From positions 62,001-126,000 of the forward strand of contig NZ_JAGHRE010000009.1 in NCBI RefSeq assembly GCF_017743935.1: a stretch of DNA of 64,000 nt. The letters run 5' to 3'. Under the pieces are notes generated by a model. The model was not told where the DNA came from and made no database searches. It was given only the letters and a program-made list of their open reading frames with translations. The position numbers and the translations under genes were made by a program. Shown here in pieces: positions 28,878 to 42,326 of this stretch. This DNA comes from Tropicibacter sp. R16_0. Its GTDB lineage: Bacteria > Pseudomonadota > Alphaproteobacteria > Rhodobacterales > Rhodobacteraceae. Within the stretch, counting starts at the first letter, position 1. Every line of letters starts with the position of its first letter.

Positions 28878-30920
28878 TCAGAAGGTCTTTGCGACGGTCA
28901 GCTTGAAGTTGCGACCCGCAGCCGGACGGGTCGACAGCTGTGTCTGATACTGTTTGTTGAAGATGTTCTCGATCCCGACGCGAACTTCGGTTCCAGCAAA
29001 CACGCCGTTCTGCGGGCGATAAGTTGCACGCAGGTTGTTGACCGCATAGCCGCCCAGATAGCCCGAGCCGTTGATCGCATTTGTGCCTTCGGCCGCGACA
29101 ACCTCCCAGCTGACATCCAGGGCCTGGCTAAAGTTCTTGCCGACTGTCAAAGCCACGGATCCAACCGGAGCAAAGATCCAGTCGGTGGTGGTGCCGCCGG
29201 GTGCCGTTTGATCGCCGCTGGCCTTGGTGCCATTCAGATCGACGTAAAAGCCGCTGGCATGGGCATATGAGGCTTCGATCTCGACACCGCTGACGTCCAC
29301 TTGGGTCAAAACGTTGCCGGCCGCGCGGACATCTTTCAAAGCGGTGTCATAGTAGTTGAGCTTGAATGCCAAACGGTCGCCGGTCGAAAACAGATCGTCG
29401 CGCAGGTACGAGAAACCCGCCTCATACGTGGTGCCCTTCTCGGGGACCCAGACCGACGACGGCTTGTCCAGACGGTCGATGATCGGGAACACCTCGGTAT
29501 AGGCTGCGCTAGCGAACACGGCAAAACCGCTGTTGAATTCATAGCGTGCCGACAAACCACCCATCAAAGCGCTGTTGTCGAATTCTCCGTTGTAGGGGAG
29601 CGTCGCGCCGGGGGAAATCTCGTCGGTGCCCTTCACCTTTTGCGACTCATACCGCAAGGCCGGTGTCAGGGTCAGAGCATCGGTGACTTCGATGTCATCC
29701 ACTGCAAAGATGGCCCAACGACGGTCCGTCCCGCCCGGGGCCGAGTTGGCGTCAGCGCGCTCACGGTTGATGAATTCCACACCAAAACGCATGTCATGCG
29801 AGGCTGCGCCGGTCTGAAAGAAGCTGCTGTTTTTGACGGTCAGCTTGGTTGTCTTGTAGTTGTGATCGGCGTTCAACAGGTCCGACACCGCGCGGTCACA
29901 TCCGGGGAAACCGGCGCATGAGCCTGGAATATAGGTGCTGTCGATGTCCTGCTCGGCATAGGTCAGGGTTGCTTCGACGTTGACCAGATCATTGCCTGCT
30001 GGCGTGAACTCGTACCGCAAACCGGCGGTGCGGCTGTCGACAACCCGGTCTACGTTGCCGAAGTAGAACCCGCCGCCCGAAGACGCGCCAAGAATGTCGT
30101 AGGGCACATCCTTGTCATTCGAATGGGTCACGTTGTACCAGGCCGAAACGGCATGTTCCCGGTCAGTCCCGAAGGTGTACCGCCCCTTGGCCAGGAATGA
30201 GTAATCCTTGAAGTCTGTCCCGGCGATGGTGTTGCCGCGCGCGTCTTCGTACTGATCCTGATCCCGATAGGTATAGTTCAACAGGAATTCGGCATCCTCA
30301 GTCGGCTGGAAAGCCAGGATCGACGATGAAGCCCAGCCAGAGCCGTTGGATTGCGCCTCAAGCGTTTGACGGAAACGTGTGCCGATCTCGCCGCCGGTGA
30401 AGTCCGAGGCGTCCTTGGTTTCAAGTTGGACCACACCACCCACGACGCCTGAGCCGAACTCGAACGAGCCTACTGTGCCTCGAATGACCGACACCGACTT
30501 GTAAAGCGAGGGGTCGGTGAACAGCTGGTTGCCGATGCGATAGATTTCCTCGCCGCCGGTGGTCGCCCCATCGATGGTGATCAGAACACGTGGGTTGGTG
30601 CCATAGGTTCCGTCCGCACCAAAACCACGGATCGAGATGCCCGAAGACTGCGGGGTCGACCCGTTCACCAAGGTCACGCCGGGAACCGAGTCGATCAGCT
30701 CTGCGATGGTCGAGGCCTGGCGGTCATAGATCTCTTCCTGGTCGATGTTGGTGACCGGAACCGCAGTGTCAGTTTGGACTTCGCGTTTGCTTTCGCCCAA
30801 CTCGATGGTGCCCAGGAATTCGTCATCCTCATCGGTTTCCTGCGCAGCTGCCAGTCCGGCAACCAGGCTGAGGCAAGAGGCAGAGCCGATCAGAACGGCC
30901 CTCAGGTTACGTGCGCGCAT
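28878..30920 (-). CDS. TonB-dependent outer-membrane receptor, probably for haem
   Basis: The 680-residue precursor has a signal peptide ending AAAQ, a possible TonB box near FLGTIELGESKREV, a plug domain (about 50-160, with SIRGFGADGTYGTNPRVLITIDG), and a 22-strand barrel ending in aromatic-rich KLTVAKTF with terminal Phe. It imports its ligand across the outer membrane. Haem is inferred from the hmuSTUV operon opposite and the exb/tonB genes after it; siderophore transport cannot be excluded since the classic FRAP/NPDL haem motif is not obvious. Two cysteines in SCAGFPGCDRA may close an extracellular loop. Confidence 0.85.
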   Translation of the reverse strand: MRARNLRAVLIGSASCLSLVAGLAAAQETDEDDEFLGTIELGESKREVQTDTAVPVTNIDQEEIYDRQASTIAELIDSVPGVTLVNGSTPQSSGISIRGFGADGTYGTNPRVLITIDGATTGGEEIYRIGNQLFTDPSLYKSVSVIRGTVGSFEFGSGVVGGVVQLETKDASDFTGGEIGTRFRQTLEAQSNGSGWASSSILAFQPTEDAEFLLNYTYRDQDQYEDARGNTIAGTDFKDYSFLAKGRYTFGTDREHAVSAWYNVTHSNDKDVPYDILGASSGGGFYFGNVDRVVDSRTAGLRYEFTPAGNDLVNVEATLTYAEQDIDSTYIPGSCAGFPGCDRAVSDLLNADHNYKTTKLTVKNSSFFQTGAASHDMRFGVEFINRERADANSAPGGTDRRWAIFAVDDIEVTDALTLTPALRYESQKVKGTDEISPGATLPYNGEFDNSALMGGLSARYEFNSGFAVFASAAYTEVFPIIDRLDKPSSVWVPEKGTTYEAGFSYLRDDLFSTGDRLAFKLNYYDTALKDVRAAGNVLTQVDVSGVEIEASYAHASGFYVDLNGTKASGDQTAPGGTTTDWIFAPVGSVALTVGKNFSQALDVSWEVVAAEGTNAINGSGYLGGYAVNNLRATYRPQNGVFAGTEVRVGIENIFNKQYQTQLSTRPAAGRNFKLTVAKTF

Positions 30921-34148: not shown

Positions 34149-34937
34149 ATGCAAGCCAAAGACATCCGCGTCAAAATCGGGCGCAAAGAAATCCTGCACG
34201 GCGTGAATTTTCGCGCCGAGCCGGGCAAGGTCACCGCAATCATCGGTCCCAACGGCTCGGGCAAGTCGACGCTGCTCAAGGCGATGACGGGCGAGCACGA
34301 CTACACCGGCGAGATCACCCTCAACGGTCAGGACGTGCGCGCGTTGAAGCCCTGGCAGCTGGCACCGCTGCGCGCGGTTCTGCCCCAGGCGGCGACGGTG
34401 GCTTTTCCCTATACCGTGACCGAGATTGTGCGCATGGGTCAAATGGGCGGTCTGTCCGTCGAGGACCCCACCCTGCCCGCGCGTGCCCTCGCCCGCGTTG
34501 ATCTGGCGGGCTTCGGGCCGCGGTTCTATTCCGATCTTTCGGGCGGTGAACAGCAGCGTGTGCAGCTTGCGCGCGTGCTGGCACAGGTCTGGGAACCGGC
34601 AGATGACGGGCAACCGCGCTGGCTGTTTCTGGATGAGCCTGTGGCCAGCCTGGACATCGCGCATCAGTTCACCGTGCTCGACGTGGCCCGCGACTTTGCC
34701 CTGGCGGGCGGTGGCGTCGTGGTGGTCATGCACGACCTGAACCTGACGGCGATGTTCGCCGACAAGGTCACAGCCATGCACCAGGGCCGCATCGCCGCCA
34801 GCGGTTCACCCGCAGACACCATCACCCGGGGTCTGCTGGAAGACGTCTATGGCTGTTCCATAGATGTCAGCCGCGCGCCTGGCAAAGGCGTCCCCTTCCT
34901 GCTGCCACAAATGCGCGGAGAGACGGGTGTGACCTGA
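34149..34937 (+). CDS. hmuV: Haem ABC transporter ATP-binding protein HmuV
   Basis: This 262-residue ATPase has Walker A GPNGSGKST, signature LSGGEQQRVQLARVL, Walker B WLFLDEPVASLD and the switch VVVMHDLNLTAMFAD. The LAQVWEPADDGQPR insert before Walker B is usual for HmuV. It powers haem import through HmuU. It follows hmuU after 2 bases. Its TGA abuts the convergent sheath gene without any gap. Confidence 0.93.
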   Translation: MQAKDIRVKIGRKEILHGVNFRAEPGKVTAIIGPNGSGKSTLLKAMTGEHDYTGEITLNGQDVRALKPWQLAPLRAVLPQAATVAFPYTVTEIVRMGQMGGLSVEDPTLPARALARVDLAGFGPRFYSDLSGGEQQRVQLARVLAQVWEPADDGQPRWLFLDEPVASLDIAHQFTVLDVARDFALAGGGVVVVMHDLNLTAMFADKVTAMHQGRIAASGSPADTITRGLLEDVYGCSIDVSRAPGKGVPFLLPQMRGETGVT

Positions 34938-36056
34938 TCACTTGGACGGCGCTTTCGGATCCGGGAGCGCCGTCTGAAACTCAATGCGCAGAATTGAAAA
35001 CTCGGCCGGGCGCAAGGTGCTGACGCCAACCTCACATACCAATCTGCCCTGATCCAAGTCGGACTGTGTCATCGTTTCAGTCCCGCAACGGACAAAGTAG
35101 GACTGTTCCACTGTCTCTCCCACAAGAGCTCCGCTGCGCCAGATCGCGGTCAGGAAAGCAGACACTTGCGCGCGAACGCGGGCCCAGGTGGGCGGCTCGT
35201 TCGGTTCCAAGGCGACCCATTCAATACCGCGCAAGAGCGACTGTTCCAACATGCTCATCAGACGGCGTTCGGACACATAGCGCATTTCGTGTCCCTTTGG
35301 CGCCCGGGTGCGCGCGCCCCAGATGCGAATGCCCCGTCCCTCGATCTGTCGCAGCGCATTGACGTTGACCGCATTCAACCCTTCCTGATCGGCATCCGTC
35401 AGATCTTGGGTGAGAACACAAGCATCAATCACCCGCTCGTTGGCAGGGGCTTTCCACACGCCACGTTCCTGAGCGACCCGCGCAAAGACCCCGCACACAT
35501 GCCCCGACGGCGGTGTCGGCTCTGTCAGGGCCTCTTTGGTTCCGGCCAGAAACCAGGGCAGATACATGGCTGCTTTCCCGGTACGCGCCAAAGGGATACC
35601 GGCGAAATCCGAGGCGTTCGAAATCTGAGCGGGTCCATCCAGAACGGCGAAACGGTTTTCATGCGCTTCGCAGTGGTCGATCAGGATTGCATGGCTTTGC
35701 GCATCCACGAAACCCGGCGCAGCAACCAGATGAATATCCAGGTTTCGGTCCAGACAATCCAAAAGCCCGGTTTTTATCTTGGTGTCACCCGAGGGCACGC
35801 CCAACACATAGAGGTCACGACCCCCGTTTTGGACAAACCCGTGAACCGCGCGCTTCAGCACACAATCCGGCCAGTCTGAATATTTCAGTTTCGAGCCGCC
35901 GTTCGAGAGCACAGGCAACAGGGTCTCGATCGGCAGATCAGACACCGGCAGATGACCGATCAACACAGTCACAGACGTCCCACACATAACAATGGACGGT
36001 GCGTCGCCTTGCAATTCTTCGACGTAAACACCTGGACCTGAAAATTCTGGCATCAA
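34938..36056 (-). CDS. Orphan contractile tail-sheath family protein
   Basis: The 372-residue protein resembles the sheath subunit of contractile phage tails and extracellular contractile injection systems. It begins MMPEFSGPGVYVEE, the usual sheath start. It has NRFAVLDGP in the core, and a C-terminal half with the highly typical GVWKAPANER, GRGIRIWGARTRAP, RYVSERRLMSMLEQSLLRG, WVALEPNE, VSAFLTAIWRSGALVGET, YFVRCG and RPAEFSILRI. It is close to the minimal size of injection-system sheaths and lacks large decoration domains. No tube, baseplate, tape-measure or ATPase gene is nearby, and its neighbours are haem import and a TRAP transporter, so it appears isolated. A transferred relic or a repurposed sheath are both possible. 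Confidence 0.87.
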   Translation of the reverse strand: MMPEFSGPGVYVEELQGDAPSIVMCGTSVTVLIGHLPVSDLPIETLLPVLSNGGSKLKYSDWPDCVLKRAVHGFVQNGGRDLYVLGVPSGDTKIKTGLLDCLDRNLDIHLVAAPGFVDAQSHAILIDHCEAHENRFAVLDGPAQISNASDFAGIPLARTGKAAMYLPWFLAGTKEALTEPTPPSGHVCGVFARVAQERGVWKAPANERVIDACVLTQDLTDADQEGLNAVNVNALRQIEGRGIRIWGARTRAPKGHEMRYVSERRLMSMLEQSLLRGIEWVALEPNEPPTWARVRAQVSAFLTAIWRSGALVGETVEQSYFVRCGTETMTQSDLDQGRLVCEVGVSTLRPAEFSILRIEFQTALPDPKAPSK

Positions 36057-36133
36057 ACAAACTCAAAACAACGGTAATTTTGAATGCATCCTAAGCGGGA
36101 ATGCCCAAATCAGGCAATCCCGTTACTTCGCCT

Positions 36134-37537
36134 CTATTGTGCCAAGGATGGCAAATAGAGGACAATTGCCGGGAACGCGACCAGCAGTGCAATCGTGATG
36201 GCATCGGCCACAAAAAACGGCATCACACCACGGAACACGTCCTGCACGCTCAGATCCGGGCGCACACCCGCCACCACAAAGCAGTTCAGGCCAATGGGCG
36301 GCGTGATCAGACAGAACTCGGCCATCTTGACCACCAGGATCCCAAACCAGATCGCGCACATCGTACCCGACATGCCAAAGGCGCTGTCAGCGGCGGCAAC
36401 GCTCTCGCCCCCGTTCAGGGCCATGACAGCCGGATAGACCACGGGCAGCGTCAACAGCAGCATGCCGATGGCGTCCATGAACATCCCCAGCACCGCATAG
36501 GCCAGCAGGATGCAGATCAGGATCAGCATGGGCGACATTTCAAGCGAGGTGATCCAGTCGGAAAAGGCCCCCGGCAGATCCGCGAAGCCAAGGAAACGCA
36601 CATAGATCAGAACGCCCCAGATGATGGTGAAGATCATCACCGTCAGCTTGGCGGTTTCCAGCAGCGCTGATTTGAACTCGGCCCATTTCATGCCACGGAA
36701 CACGGCCATGCAGAACACGACAAAAGCACCAAGCGCCCCACCCTCGGTCGGGGTGCCCCAGGCGTCGCCGCCAAAGGGATTGTAAACAAAGCAGATGATG
36801 ATCACGACCACAAAGACGATGGGCAGCGCACCGGGCAACGAAGCAAAACGTTCGCGCCAGGTAAAGCCGGTCACTGGCGGTCCAACGGTCTTGAAAATCA
36901 CCGCGATGCCCACGATCAGCAGACCATAGATGATCGCCGAGAACGCGCCAGGAATGAAGCCTGCAAGCAGCAGCTTGCCCACATCCTGTTCCACGATGAT
37001 GGCATAGATAACCAGAATGGCCGATGGCGGGATCAGCGAGGCCAGCGTACCCCCTGCCGCCACAACACCCGCGGCAAAGCGTTTGTTGTAGCCAATCGCC
37101 AGCATCTCGGGGATGGCGATGCGGGCAAAAACGGCGGAGGTGGCGACCGAGGCCCCCGACACGGCGGCGAAGCCCGCGGTTGCGAAAACCGTAGAAACGG
37201 CCAAGCCGCCGGGCAACCAGGCGATCCAGCGTTTGGCGGCCTCGAACAGCGCCTTGGTCAGGCCCGCGTAATAAGCCAGATAACCGATCAGGATGAAGGT
37301 CGGGATCAGGCTCAGCGCCTGGCTCGACACTTTGGAATGGGGCACCTGCCCCGCGATCTTGACCGAGACGGTCAGCGCCTTGCCGAACTTGTCGGGCGCA
37401 TAGCCGAACTTGGCCCAGAAGATCCAGATCAGGCCCACAAGGCCCGCCAGACCCGCAGCAAAGGCCACGCGCATGCCCAGAACAACCATCAGCAGCAGGC
37501 CGCCGGTGACCCAAAGGCCGATATCAATGCTATCCAT
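36134..37537 (-). CDS. dctM: TRAP transporter large permease DctM
   Basis: The 467-residue membrane protein has 12 or more spans and the DctM signature segments: SLIPTFILIGYLAYYAGLT, ASVATSAVFARIAIPEM, GGTLASLIPPSAILVIYAIIVEQ, and a C-terminal MFMDAIGMLLLTLPVVYPAV. It is the Na+-coupled channel subunit of a tripartite carboxylate importer. The ATG at 37537 overlaps dctQ by 8 bases; the frame runs open to 37588, but that extension lies inside dctQ. Confidence 0.93.
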   Translation of the reverse strand: MDSIDIGLWVTGGLLLMVVLGMRVAFAAGLAGLVGLIWIFWAKFGYAPDKFGKALTVSVKIAGQVPHSKVSSQALSLIPTFILIGYLAYYAGLTKALFEAAKRWIAWLPGGLAVSTVFATAGFAAVSGASVATSAVFARIAIPEMLAIGYNKRFAAGVVAAGGTLASLIPPSAILVIYAIIVEQDVGKLLLAGFIPGAFSAIIYGLLIVGIAVIFKTVGPPVTGFTWRERFASLPGALPIVFVVVIIICFVYNPFGGDAWGTPTEGGALGAFVVFCMAVFRGMKWAEFKSALLETAKLTVMIFTIIWGVLIYVRFLGFADLPGAFSDWITSLEMSPMLILICILLAYAVLGMFMDAIGMLLLTLPVVYPAVMALNGGESVAAADSAFGMSGTMCAIWFGILVVKMAEFCLITPPIGLNCFVVAGVRPDLSVQDVFRGVMPFFVADAITIALLVAFPAIVLYLPSLAQ

Positions 37538-38165
37538 TGTCGTGCCCCTCAAGCTGCTCGGCCTCGGCAGCGGCCTGTGCCGCCACATCCTGGATCAAGG
37601 GCACCGCGACGGGGCTTTCCAACCCCAAGACCAGCGCACGACCATAGCCCCAGATCTGCAAGACCAACCGCAGGCACAGCACGCCAAAGGCCACCGGCGC
37701 CAGCAGTTTTGCAGGCCAGATCGGGATGCCAATGTCGATAGAGCTGTCACGGCTCCATAGTGGCGCGTTGAAATCAAAGGCGCGCAGGAAATGTTCCCAA
37801 CTGCCCCAGACAAGCGCCATCATCAAAAACAGGATCAAGATCACCGACAACAGCTCAAAAAACCACAGCGCCCGCCCCGACAGCTTGCTGACCACCAGGT
37901 CCATACGAATGTGGCCGCCGTCACGCTGAACATAAGCGATACCCATGAAAGCAATCAGCGGCATCGCCTGTTCGATCCAGTCCACATAGCCCGGCAGCGG
38001 GGCGTTGAATGCGTTACGTCCCCCCACCGACACCACCGCCAGCAGCATCAGGCCAAAGACGGCCAATCCGCTGAGCAGCGCCAGAAACTTTTCGATCACC
38101 AAAAGCGACCGGTCCACCCTGCTGAGCAGGCTGTGATCCTCTAATACCGAGGCTTGTCCTGCCAT
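37530..38165 (-). CDS. dctQ: TRAP transporter small permease DctQ
   Basis: This 211-residue protein has four membrane spans with the family's FMGIAYVQRDGGHIRMDLVVSKLSG segment near the middle. It pairs with DctM. The C-terminal 40 residues are hydrophilic and acidic. It is separated from dctP by an intrinsic-type hairpin, so the permeases are probably made in smaller amounts than the binding protein. Confidence 0.92.
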   Translation of the reverse strand: MAGQASVLEDHSLLSRVDRSLLVIEKFLALLSGLAVFGLMLLAVVSVGGRNAFNAPLPGYVDWIEQAMPLIAFMGIAYVQRDGGHIRMDLVVSKLSGRALWFFELLSVILILFLMMALVWGSWEHFLRAFDFNAPLWSRDSSIDIGIPIWPAKLLAPVAFGVLCLRLVLQIWGYGRALVLGLESPVAVPLIQDVAAQAAAEAEQLEGHDNG

Positions 38166-38240: not shown

Positions 38241-39257
38241 TTAGTTGCCGCCGCGCTCTGCCTTAAGCGTTGCCATGACCAGATCATAAAGATCCTGCGC
38301 AGGCAGGCCCTGGGCGGTCATGTCGGCAATCCACTTTTCGCGGATCGGATCAGCCGCAGCCTTGCGGAAGGCATCCAGCTCGCTCTCGGCCAGTTCGACC
38401 TTGGTCACGTTCTTTTCGGCCAGAACGCTGTCCCACTTTTCAAGCAGGGCGCCATAGTTGGCCAGATAGTGACCGATGGCTTCATCAATCGAGCTGTCCA
38501 GTGCTTCGCGGTGCTCGGGGCTCAGCGCCTCATAGGCGTCGATGTTCACCACCACCGGGCAGTTCACGGTGCCGGGGTTCAGGTTTGCGGTCCACCAATC
38601 GGCGCGGTTGATGGTGCCAAAGGCCAGATGCGCGTGCTGGGCAAAGGCCACTGTATCGACAACACCCGATTCCATTGCGTTATAGGCTTCGGTCGCGGTC
38701 ACCGAGGTCGGCACGCCGCCAACGGCCGAGAACGCCTGACCGATGCCGCCGGTTGCGCGGACACGCATGTCTTTGAACTCTGCCAGCTGGTCGCGTGGCT
38801 CGCCGGTGCCAACCAGGTTGTACTGCGGCATGGGCGAGGTCATGATAATGCGCGCGTTCCACTGCGCCATCTCTTCCTTGACCGCCGGGTGATCATAGAC
38901 CGCGTGGCTGACGGCCACTTCTTCTTCCAGTGTGTTCACACCCAGGAATGGCAGCTCCAGCACGGTGATCGCACGGTTCTTGTCGCGGTGGTAACCCGCG
39001 CAGAACTGCGCCATCTCAAAGGCACCGATGGAGATGCCGTCCAGATTTTCCTTGTTCTTGGACAGGCCACCATAGCTGATGTTCAGCGTGAATTCGCCAC
39101 CGGTCTTTTCGTCAACCAGTTCGGCCAGTTTCTCGACATGTTCGGTAAAGGCGCGGCGCTTGCCCCAGAGCGACACGTTCCATTCGGTCGCCATGGCTTC
39201 GGACACAAAAGCAAAGCTGGCAGCAGCGGCCACTGCACCCGTCAACATCTTGTTCAT
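38241..39257 (-). CDS. dctP: TRAP transporter substrate-binding protein DctP
   Basis: The 338-residue periplasmic receptor has a signal peptide cleaved after AMA and the DctP fold. Key spots are DMRVRATGGIGQAF (the conserved Arg that salt-bridges the ligand carboxylate), GGVPTSVTATEAYNAMESGVVDTVAF and the late helical segment AIGHYLANYGALLEKW. The ligand is an unidentified organic acid. A leader hairpin (39277-39298, GCGCCC...GGGCGC type) precedes the ribosome site. Confidence 0.92.
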   Translation of the reverse strand: MNKMLTGAVAAAASFAFVSEAMATEWNVSLWGKRRAFTEHVEKLAELVDEKTGGEFTLNISYGGLSKNKENLDGISIGAFEMAQFCAGYHRDKNRAITVLELPFLGVNTLEEEVAVSHAVYDHPAVKEEMAQWNARIIMTSPMPQYNLVGTGEPRDQLAEFKDMRVRATGGIGQAFSAVGGVPTSVTATEAYNAMESGVVDTVAFAQHAHLAFGTINRADWWTANLNPGTVNCPVVVNIDAYEALSPEHREALDSSIDEAIGHYLANYGALLEKWDSVLAEKNVTKVELAESELDAFRKAAADPIREKWIADMTAQGLPAQDLYDLVMATLKAERGGN

Positions 39258-41701: not shown

Positions 41702-41711
41702 GGGTAAGTTG

Positions 41712-42326
41712 ATGACAACCGATACCCTTACTCGAACGGCCAATGTCATCCTTCTCGGCCCCCCCGGGGTCGGCAAGGGCACGCAGGCACAGATCCTGGT
41801 CGAAAACCGCGGCATGGTGCAGCTGAGCACCGGCGACATGCTGCGCGAGGCCAAGGACAGCGGCTCGGAGATGGGCAAGCGCGTGGCTGAGGTGATGGCG
41901 CGCGGTGATCTGGTGACGGACGAGATCGTCATCGGCCTCATCGAAGAAAAACTGACAGGATCAGATGCCGCCGGTTTCATCTTTGATGGCTTCCCACGGA
42001 CGTTAGCTCAGGCCGACGCGCTCGAGGCGCTGCTGAAGAAAACCGGCCAGAGCCTGGACGCCGTGATCGAGCTGCAGGTGGATGACGAAATCCTTGTCGA
42101 CCGCATCGTTGGTCGGGCGGAGCAGGCAAAGGCCGCAGGTCAGCCCGTGCGCGCCGATGACAACGCCGAAAGCCTGAAAATCCGGCTGATGGAATACTAC
42201 AAAAAGACCTCACCGCTGATCGGATACTACCACGCCAAAGGTGCGTTGCAGTCCGTGAACGGCATGGGCGACATTGACGAGATCGCCCAGGGTTTGAACG
42301 ACATTGTTGCGTCAGCGATGACGTAA
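41712..42326 (+). CDS. adk: Adenylate kinase adjacent to Acs
   Basis: The 204-residue enzyme interconverts ATP + AMP with 2 ADP. It shows P-loop [24 protein letters not shown]-type LID start, [11 protein letters not shown], and a short LID ([19 protein letters not shown]) without zinc cysteines. It begins 10 bases after acs, so the AMP released by acetate activation would be recycled by a co-produced kinase. The preferred ATG at 41712 follows a weak GGGTAAG site; a TTG lies one codon upstream. Compared with housekeeping Adk it carries a short N-terminal extension ([11 protein letters not shown]). Whether another adk exists in the genome is not visible here. Confidence 0.92.

Follow-up and report, generated by a model that had tools for sequence, protein, structure and literature searches.

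Contractile sheaths of the eCIS type work together with a tube, a baseplate, a spike and an ATPase. In one survey, Afp8 and Afp11 are named as core genes and are reported in 98.7% of its loci (PMC8213781). In a metagenome survey of contractile injection systems, candidates without baseplate, tube or sheath-initiator genes were excluded (PMC12210884); given the exclusion criteria that it reports, minimal loci holding only a sheath gene, or a sheath gene and a tube gene, fall outside it, and they probably fall outside the former survey as well. For a sheath produced alone, gp053 of phage FV3 provides an example: the recombinant protein is reported to form polysheaths without other viral proteins (PMC6357053). 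A search of the open-access literature, with subscription papers outside its scope, found no account of lone-sheath or sheath + tube loci.

The window, i.e. the whole 64,000-nucleotide stretch of Tropicibacter sp. R16_0 DNA that was analysed, carries a sheath gene that an earlier note had described as an orphan. Four genomes of the genus (completeness 99-100) were compared: the window's own (G000), G073, G394, which is very likely Falsiruegeria mediterranea M17 CECT 7615, and G395, very likely Tropicibacter sp. Alg240-R139. The gene and its neighbours are listed below; the names given to the haem import and TRAP neighbours are putative.

34149..34937, plus strand: haem ABC transporter ATPase (hmuV-like), convergent, its stop abutting the sheath stop; not beside the sheath in G395
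34938..36053, minus strand: orphan eCIS-type contractile sheath gene, 371 aa, ATG start
36054..36133, minus strand: gap of 80 bases from the dctM stop to the sheath start, with an inverted repeat and then the TAGGATGC block
36134..37537, minus strand: TRAP transporter large permease (dctM), directly upstream; the sheath lies behind dctM in 4/4 genus genomes
37530..38165, minus strand: TRAP small permease (dctQ), a neighbour, not in the sheath unit as far as shown
38241..39257, minus strand: TRAP solute-binding protein (dctP), a neighbour

The sheath frame on the minus strand spans 34938-36056 when read from a TTG and 34938-36053 when read from the ATG at 36053; the MPEF.. start given by the ATG lines up with other sheaths. 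The product has 371 residues with the N-terminus MPEFSGPGVYVEE, and the plus strand of the same stretch holds 3 stops in frame 1. Both sheath domains scored above the curated Pfam cut-offs (PF04984, 53.1 bits against 31.4; PF17482, 46.2 bits against 26.9), and the PHROGs sheath families phrog_17610 (E 1.2e-50) and phrog_23 (E 3.3e-38) were matched. By sequence, the best solved relatives in the PDB were CIS sheaths (9ezm_A, E 6.2e-68; 8bky_A, E 1.3e-64), and Pvc2 (355 aa) matched positions 6-358 of the query, nearly its full length (E 1.1e-44). An AlphaFold2 model built on a 20-sequence alignment reached pLDDT 80.7 and pTM 0.75, and Foldseek returned the contracted sheath of the Streptomyces coelicolor CIS as its top PDB match (8bky_A, E 2.4e-26, TMq 0.70, rmsd 8.2). 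The first 15 residues of the model have low confidence, as might be expected of an arm that is ordered in the lattice only. The arm motifs P7-G8 and P349-A350-E351-F352 were invariant in 20/20 aligned sheaths, and residues 321-360, in the C-terminal domain, were among the best-kept stretches across the congeners. Searches of NCBIfam and PADLOC with the sheath gave no family, and a promoter scan gave 0 sites. The gene is full-length, intact and of the eCIS type, and its identification as a sheath in the earlier note holds on the two Pfam domains, the CIS sheaths of the PDB and the Foldseek match to 8bky_A alike.

Like the eCIS sheaths (Pvc2/Afp2, the Streptomyces CIS 8bky/8bl4 and H. borinquense 9ezm), the protein has both Pfam domains, the same fold and the arm motifs, and it is a short sheath without the insertion domain (371 aa here, 354-355 aa in Pvc2/Afp2); unlike them, it is encoded in a genome without tube, baseplate J or gp25. 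We propose, with a probability of roughly 0.55, that it derives from an eCIS and now stands alone as a reduced, polymer-forming protein whose function does not involve injection.

The host genome comprises 5,238,434 bases (5.24 Mb) in 37 contigs with completeness 100, and the sheath is its sole PF04984 match. Tube (PF06841), baseplate J (PF04865) and gp25 (PF04965) were each found in 0/4 genomes of the genus. The same searches were positive in 6/6 other genomes for the tube, 5/6 for baseplate J and 6/6 for gp25, the sixth genome in the baseplate J search being G300, which carries a sheath + tube pair; the eCIS-bearing family genomes G077, G280 and G221 were positive in the searches for all three. 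The PF04965 model, which we take to find the gp25-like TssE of T6SS as well, had no match in 4/4 congeners. Our own HMMs for tube, gp25, VgrG-like, baseplate J and Pvc16 (the last built from 2 sequences) matched nothing in the 64-kb window (E<=1e-4) and nothing within 20 kb around the sheath in the three congeners, the VgrG-like spike being among the components looked for in both places. As judged by tube, baseplate J and gp25, the sheath locus is very unlikely to be part of an eCIS, and the earlier statement that no other tail gene accompanies the sheath is upheld by the single sheath in the genome, by the missing partners and by the empty HMM search of the window. A prophage origin was considered and rejected on the one PF04984 match in the genome and the lack of a near phage sheath (159 records, all <60% identity); the neighbours of the sheath read as transporters and metabolism, not as phage genes.

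The gene was found in 4/4 genus genomes, with an open frame in all, and each time directly behind the dctPQM TRAP operon, so the conserved synteny that the earlier note had proposed to look for is present. Haem genes lie on its other side in three of these genomes, and other genes in G395. A DctM search of 198 family genomes gave 103 matches at E<=1e-150 (101 other genomes), and loci were taken from 30, of which 28 were in other genera. None of these 28 loci had a sheath within 1.5 kb downstream of dctM; one gave a sheath match at E 1.1, taken as chance. With 4/4 in the genus and 0/28 in the loci from other genera, the sheath either took up this position in the ancestor of the genus or reached its members by later spread among them. 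Operon membership could tie it, as an accessory protein, to the TRAP transporter or to haem uptake, a reading that draws on the mere 80 bases separating it from dctM, with both genes on one strand, and on its place behind dctM in 4/4 congeners. The 0/28 count in other genera, the different addresses of its nearest kin and the haem side that is not conserved in G395 make this quite improbable.

Within the 80-base gap, the inverted repeat and the TAGGATGC block are little changed in the genus, the repeat being weaker in G395, and 2/200 shuffles folded as well as the repeat. The gap motif was matched in 0/28 other-genus dctM loci, several of which have other palindromes there, as judged by eye. 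On account of these palindromes the repeat may be a dctM terminator rather than a sheath signal; the element as a whole may be a dctM terminator, a sheath operator/promoter, or both.

A sheath match of any kind was obtained in 52/394 family genomes (nearly all one per genus). Outside the genus, near full-length, high-score sheaths came from four genomes. In three of them (G077, G280 and G221), short sheaths stand in clusters with tube, VgrG-like, gp25 and baseplate J genes. The fourth, G300, very likely Oceanicola sp. m2, has only a sheath and a tube at the locus, flanked by what we take to be a sugar-binding protein gene and an acyl-CoA synthetase gene. The pair occupies the same site in 3/7 genomes of its genus, g300 (G300, G398 and G399), and a pattern scan of GTDB species found a sheath + tube pair in Mameliella alba as well (L053, genome G553). 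The tube lies directly downstream of the pair sheaths, recognised by PF06841 in G300 and Mameliella and by the tube HMM in G398 and G399. Baseplate J was found in 0/4 of the pair genomes (G300, G398, G399 and G553), while G397 and G077 were positive in the same search; G300 and G399 are single-contig genomes. In the three g300 genomes that carry the pair, a gp25-like sequence was matched weakly (41-42 bits) some 102-139 kb away from it, perhaps a T6SS TssE. Across the minimal loci there is no fixed partner gene to hint at a task.

A further member of the genus of the pairs, G397, carries a fuller eCIS cluster (L137, G397:C110) with tubes, VgrG-like, gp25 and a baseplate J match. Its eCIS sheath is 39% identical to that of the pair, and no pair-type sheath was found in that genome. 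The sheath also matched 125 plasmid records, of which two from Rhodobacterales were inspected; those of Paracoccus sp. MC1862 and Rhodovulum sulfidophilum both proved to hold fuller eCIS clusters (tube, baseplate V, gp25, baseplate J) and no minimal locus.

These results bear on the suggestions, made in the earlier note, that the sheath might be a remote component of an injection system or that tail genes might lie past an assembly gap. A working injector with its other parts elsewhere in the genome or in a gap would be compatible with a draft assembly of 37 contigs, and with a genome-wide search that covered three partner families and one sheath family. Against it stand the 0/4 counts for tube, baseplate J and gp25 at completeness 99-100, with G077, G280 and G221 positive in the same searches, and the pair lineage, which is also without baseplate J, including in the single-contig G300 and G399. 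The sheath occupies positions 96941-98056 of a 267,658-base contig, about 97 kb in, so there is no assembly gap near it. The locus is uncommon and conserved in the four genus genomes, and a role in an injector is very unlikely.

The dN/dS of the sheath (NG86) was 0.153 between G000 and G394 (bootstrap 95% 0.098-0.237; 92% aa identity) and 0.16-0.22 in the other five genus pairs. In a neutral simulation, in which the observed difference counts were placed at random, the frame was open in 83/2000 runs at the G394 divergence and in 0/2000 at each of the G073 and G395 divergences. The sheath is under purifying selection; a dN/dS below 1 denotes constraint and says nothing on which function is constrained. 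Among the neighbours compared, dN/dS was 0.01-0.10, save for a TonB receptor at up to 0.22, so the sheath is less constrained than most. In the g300 pairs the values were 0.31-0.38 for the sheath and 0.31-0.68 for the tube, a weaker constraint that could mark the start of decay there.

A slowly decaying eCIS relic, open by chance, had been among the possibilities named in the earlier note. It would agree with the presence in the family of other genera whose eCIS are complete and have short sheaths (G077, G280 and G221), with a stepwise reduction, which fits loss, with a GC3 that is the lowest of 12 genes, and with the higher dN/dS in the pair lineage. The dN/dS of 0.15, however, argues against simple decay, and with a genus range of 0.15-0.22, no open frame in 2000 simulations at either deeper divergence, and a frame that is open and at a fixed address in 4/4 species, a relic is unlikely. 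Decay of the gene in all relatives, which the note had envisaged, was not seen in the genus.

The amino acid identity of the sheath from G000 to G073 and G395 is 58-61%, whereas that of the TRAP neighbours is 94-99%. Sheath dS was 1.5-2.0 in the five deep pairs, compared with 0.32-0.93 in the dctP, dctM and acs pairs, and a dS of about 2 is close to saturation and therefore tells only that the divergence is deep; for G000-G394 it was 0.285, as in the neighbours. The sheath GC3 of 0.642 was the lowest of 12 genes compared (others 0.724-0.798), a value that would suit a gene of low expression or of foreign origin, and the weak codon bias may add to the high dS. Either exchange of alleles or fast evolution of the gene would account for the deep divergence.

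The TonB-dependent receptor gene by the haem genes (window 28878-30920, minus strand) is a second fast or exchanged gene in the stretch; its product is 64% identical to that of G073 (dS 1.4) and 97% identical to that of G394. The adenylate kinase gene by acs (window 41709-42326, plus strand; compared with L035-L037) is 97-98% identical in G073/G394 and 50% identical in G395.

A special case of repurposing would be an interference protein, in which the lone sheath acts against the contractile tails or injectors of others (phages, tailocins or eCIS), for example by capping a foreign sheath or co-polymerising with it. A sheath this divergent at one fixed site beside well-kept TRAP genes, with the high dS of the deep pairs, as for swapped or diversifying alleles, would suit such a role. 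The TonB receptor nearby shows such divergence to G073, and the g300 pair shows it too, in which G300 and G399 share 66% identity in the sheath, 50% in the tube and 92-97% in the flanking genes. However, the 159 phage records that matched were all <60% identical, at 24-29% among the 15 matches listed, and mixed polymers with phage sheaths so distant are unlikely. No PADLOC family matched, the G000-G394 pair has no excess divergence, and the high dS may partly reflect codon bias; on balance we hold interference to be unlikely.

The main sheath tree had 62 rows; it was built without duplicates of G-handles (L050-L052, L093), without sheaths whose start the pattern missed, and without 26/88 rows of a distant branch or second type (mostly Bacteroidota, also Nitrospirota, an Alteromonadaceae and others). 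A 63-row tree added the lone sheath of G439. In both, the eight minimal loci (four sheath-only, four sheath + tube) lie on one side of a branch with support 100/99, a wording chosen because the trees are midpoint-rooted, and the complete-eCIS sheaths sampled lie outside this group. The four sheath-only rows are supported at 100/100 and the three g300 pairs at 99/92. The sheath-only rows joined the g300 pairs at 97/75 with 62 rows and at 87/46 with 63; given this drop, and the long branch of the sheath-only rows (~1 change per column), a succession of pair first and tube then lost is not firm. The nearest others to the minimal group are short sheaths, including those of the complete clusters of G077, G280, Paracoccus and Rhodovulum (14-row set, 98/95).

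Among the columns conserved in 50 other sheaths, 35 differ in every one of the 4 sheath-only rows, 24 of them at the level of the residue and 11 at that of the class; examples are V24 to C, R80 to D, hydrophobic 250 to R, V262 to E, D324 to G and V353 to S. The 50 were taken as tube-bearing, not checked row by row, and no conclusion on tube contact is drawn, as four related long-branch rows give such lists anyway. An Arg at position 295 failed as a mark of tube contact, being present in 24/50 sheaths.

A wider scan kept 80/343 loci and used two peptide patterns, and so is no census. Sheaths without a core eCIS HMM nearby were seen in L047, L048, L061, L072, L083 (a 5.6-kb contig), L088, L105, L111, L126 and G439. 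The short, lone-looking ones in the tree (L072, L088 and G439) fall outside the group of sheath-only loci and pairs, and the L072 genome has baseplate J elsewhere. L088:8989-10119, from an Ectothiorhodospiraceae MAG, is a lone 377-aa sheath beside what we take to be xdhC/mocA-like genes; its surroundings gave no match to a core eCIS HMM, and baseplate J is missing from the genome. The G439 sheath, from an alphaproteobacterium of another family, is a lone short frame of 386 aa (L176:9124-10284, minus strand), and the core eCIS HMMs matched nothing in its 20 kb. These two fall in one group with two tube-bearing sheaths (L108, L124; support 100/100), in which they pair at 97/53, G439 being on a long branch (1.62); with this group standing apart, lone sheaths probably arose more than once. 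In L105:7358-9834, from a Pelomonas MAG, a Pvc16_N protein (PF14065) adjoins a sheath-like frame; the surroundings gave no further match to the core eCIS HMMs, and baseplate J was not found in the genome.

The partners of the searched families are absent, the sheath groups with the pairs, and selection maintains it. In the simplest history for the eCIS-derived, stand-alone reading, a complete eCIS would have been reduced to a sheath + tube pair without baseplate, and then to the sheath alone in this genus, an order of losses that is weakly supported. The protein has retained the sheath fold and the motifs of both arms, which lace subunits into the helical lattice, and its working form is most likely a homopolymer, either a short cytoplasmic tubule of the polysheath type or rings. 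Polymerisation is what we infer from other sheaths: a homopolymer is likely since the arm motifs are kept and a recombinant phage sheath alone forms tubes. Having no tube or baseplate, the sheath would be unable to inject. The polymer may serve as a scaffold, form a filament linked to stress, or interfere with the contractile tails of others. Tentatively, the baseplate-less contractile modules of Roseobacteraceae, sheath + tube and sheath alone, might be a lineage freed from injection and maintained because the protein assembles itself into a cytoplasmic polymer with a task in the cell, a natural polysheath. Of the possibilities in the earlier note, injector, relic and assembly gap are unlikely, and the repurposed self-assembling filament is the one that remains; repurposing fits best, and self-assembly of this protein would be expected from other sheaths.

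Should selection maintain a sheath on its own, the contractile polymer would have a use beyond injection. The polysheaths of gp053 likewise consist of a sheath without partners, there as the experimental product of a normal phage gene (PMC6357053); here the partnerless state is natural and belongs to a chromosomal gene. The Mameliella alba and g300 pairs resemble the present locus in having no baseplate J in the genome and are its nearest neighbours in the tree, those of g300 also having a fixed site, but differ from it in the tube gene directly downstream. With complete eCIS, pair and single gene forming a series in one bacterial family, a non-injection use becomes directly testable.
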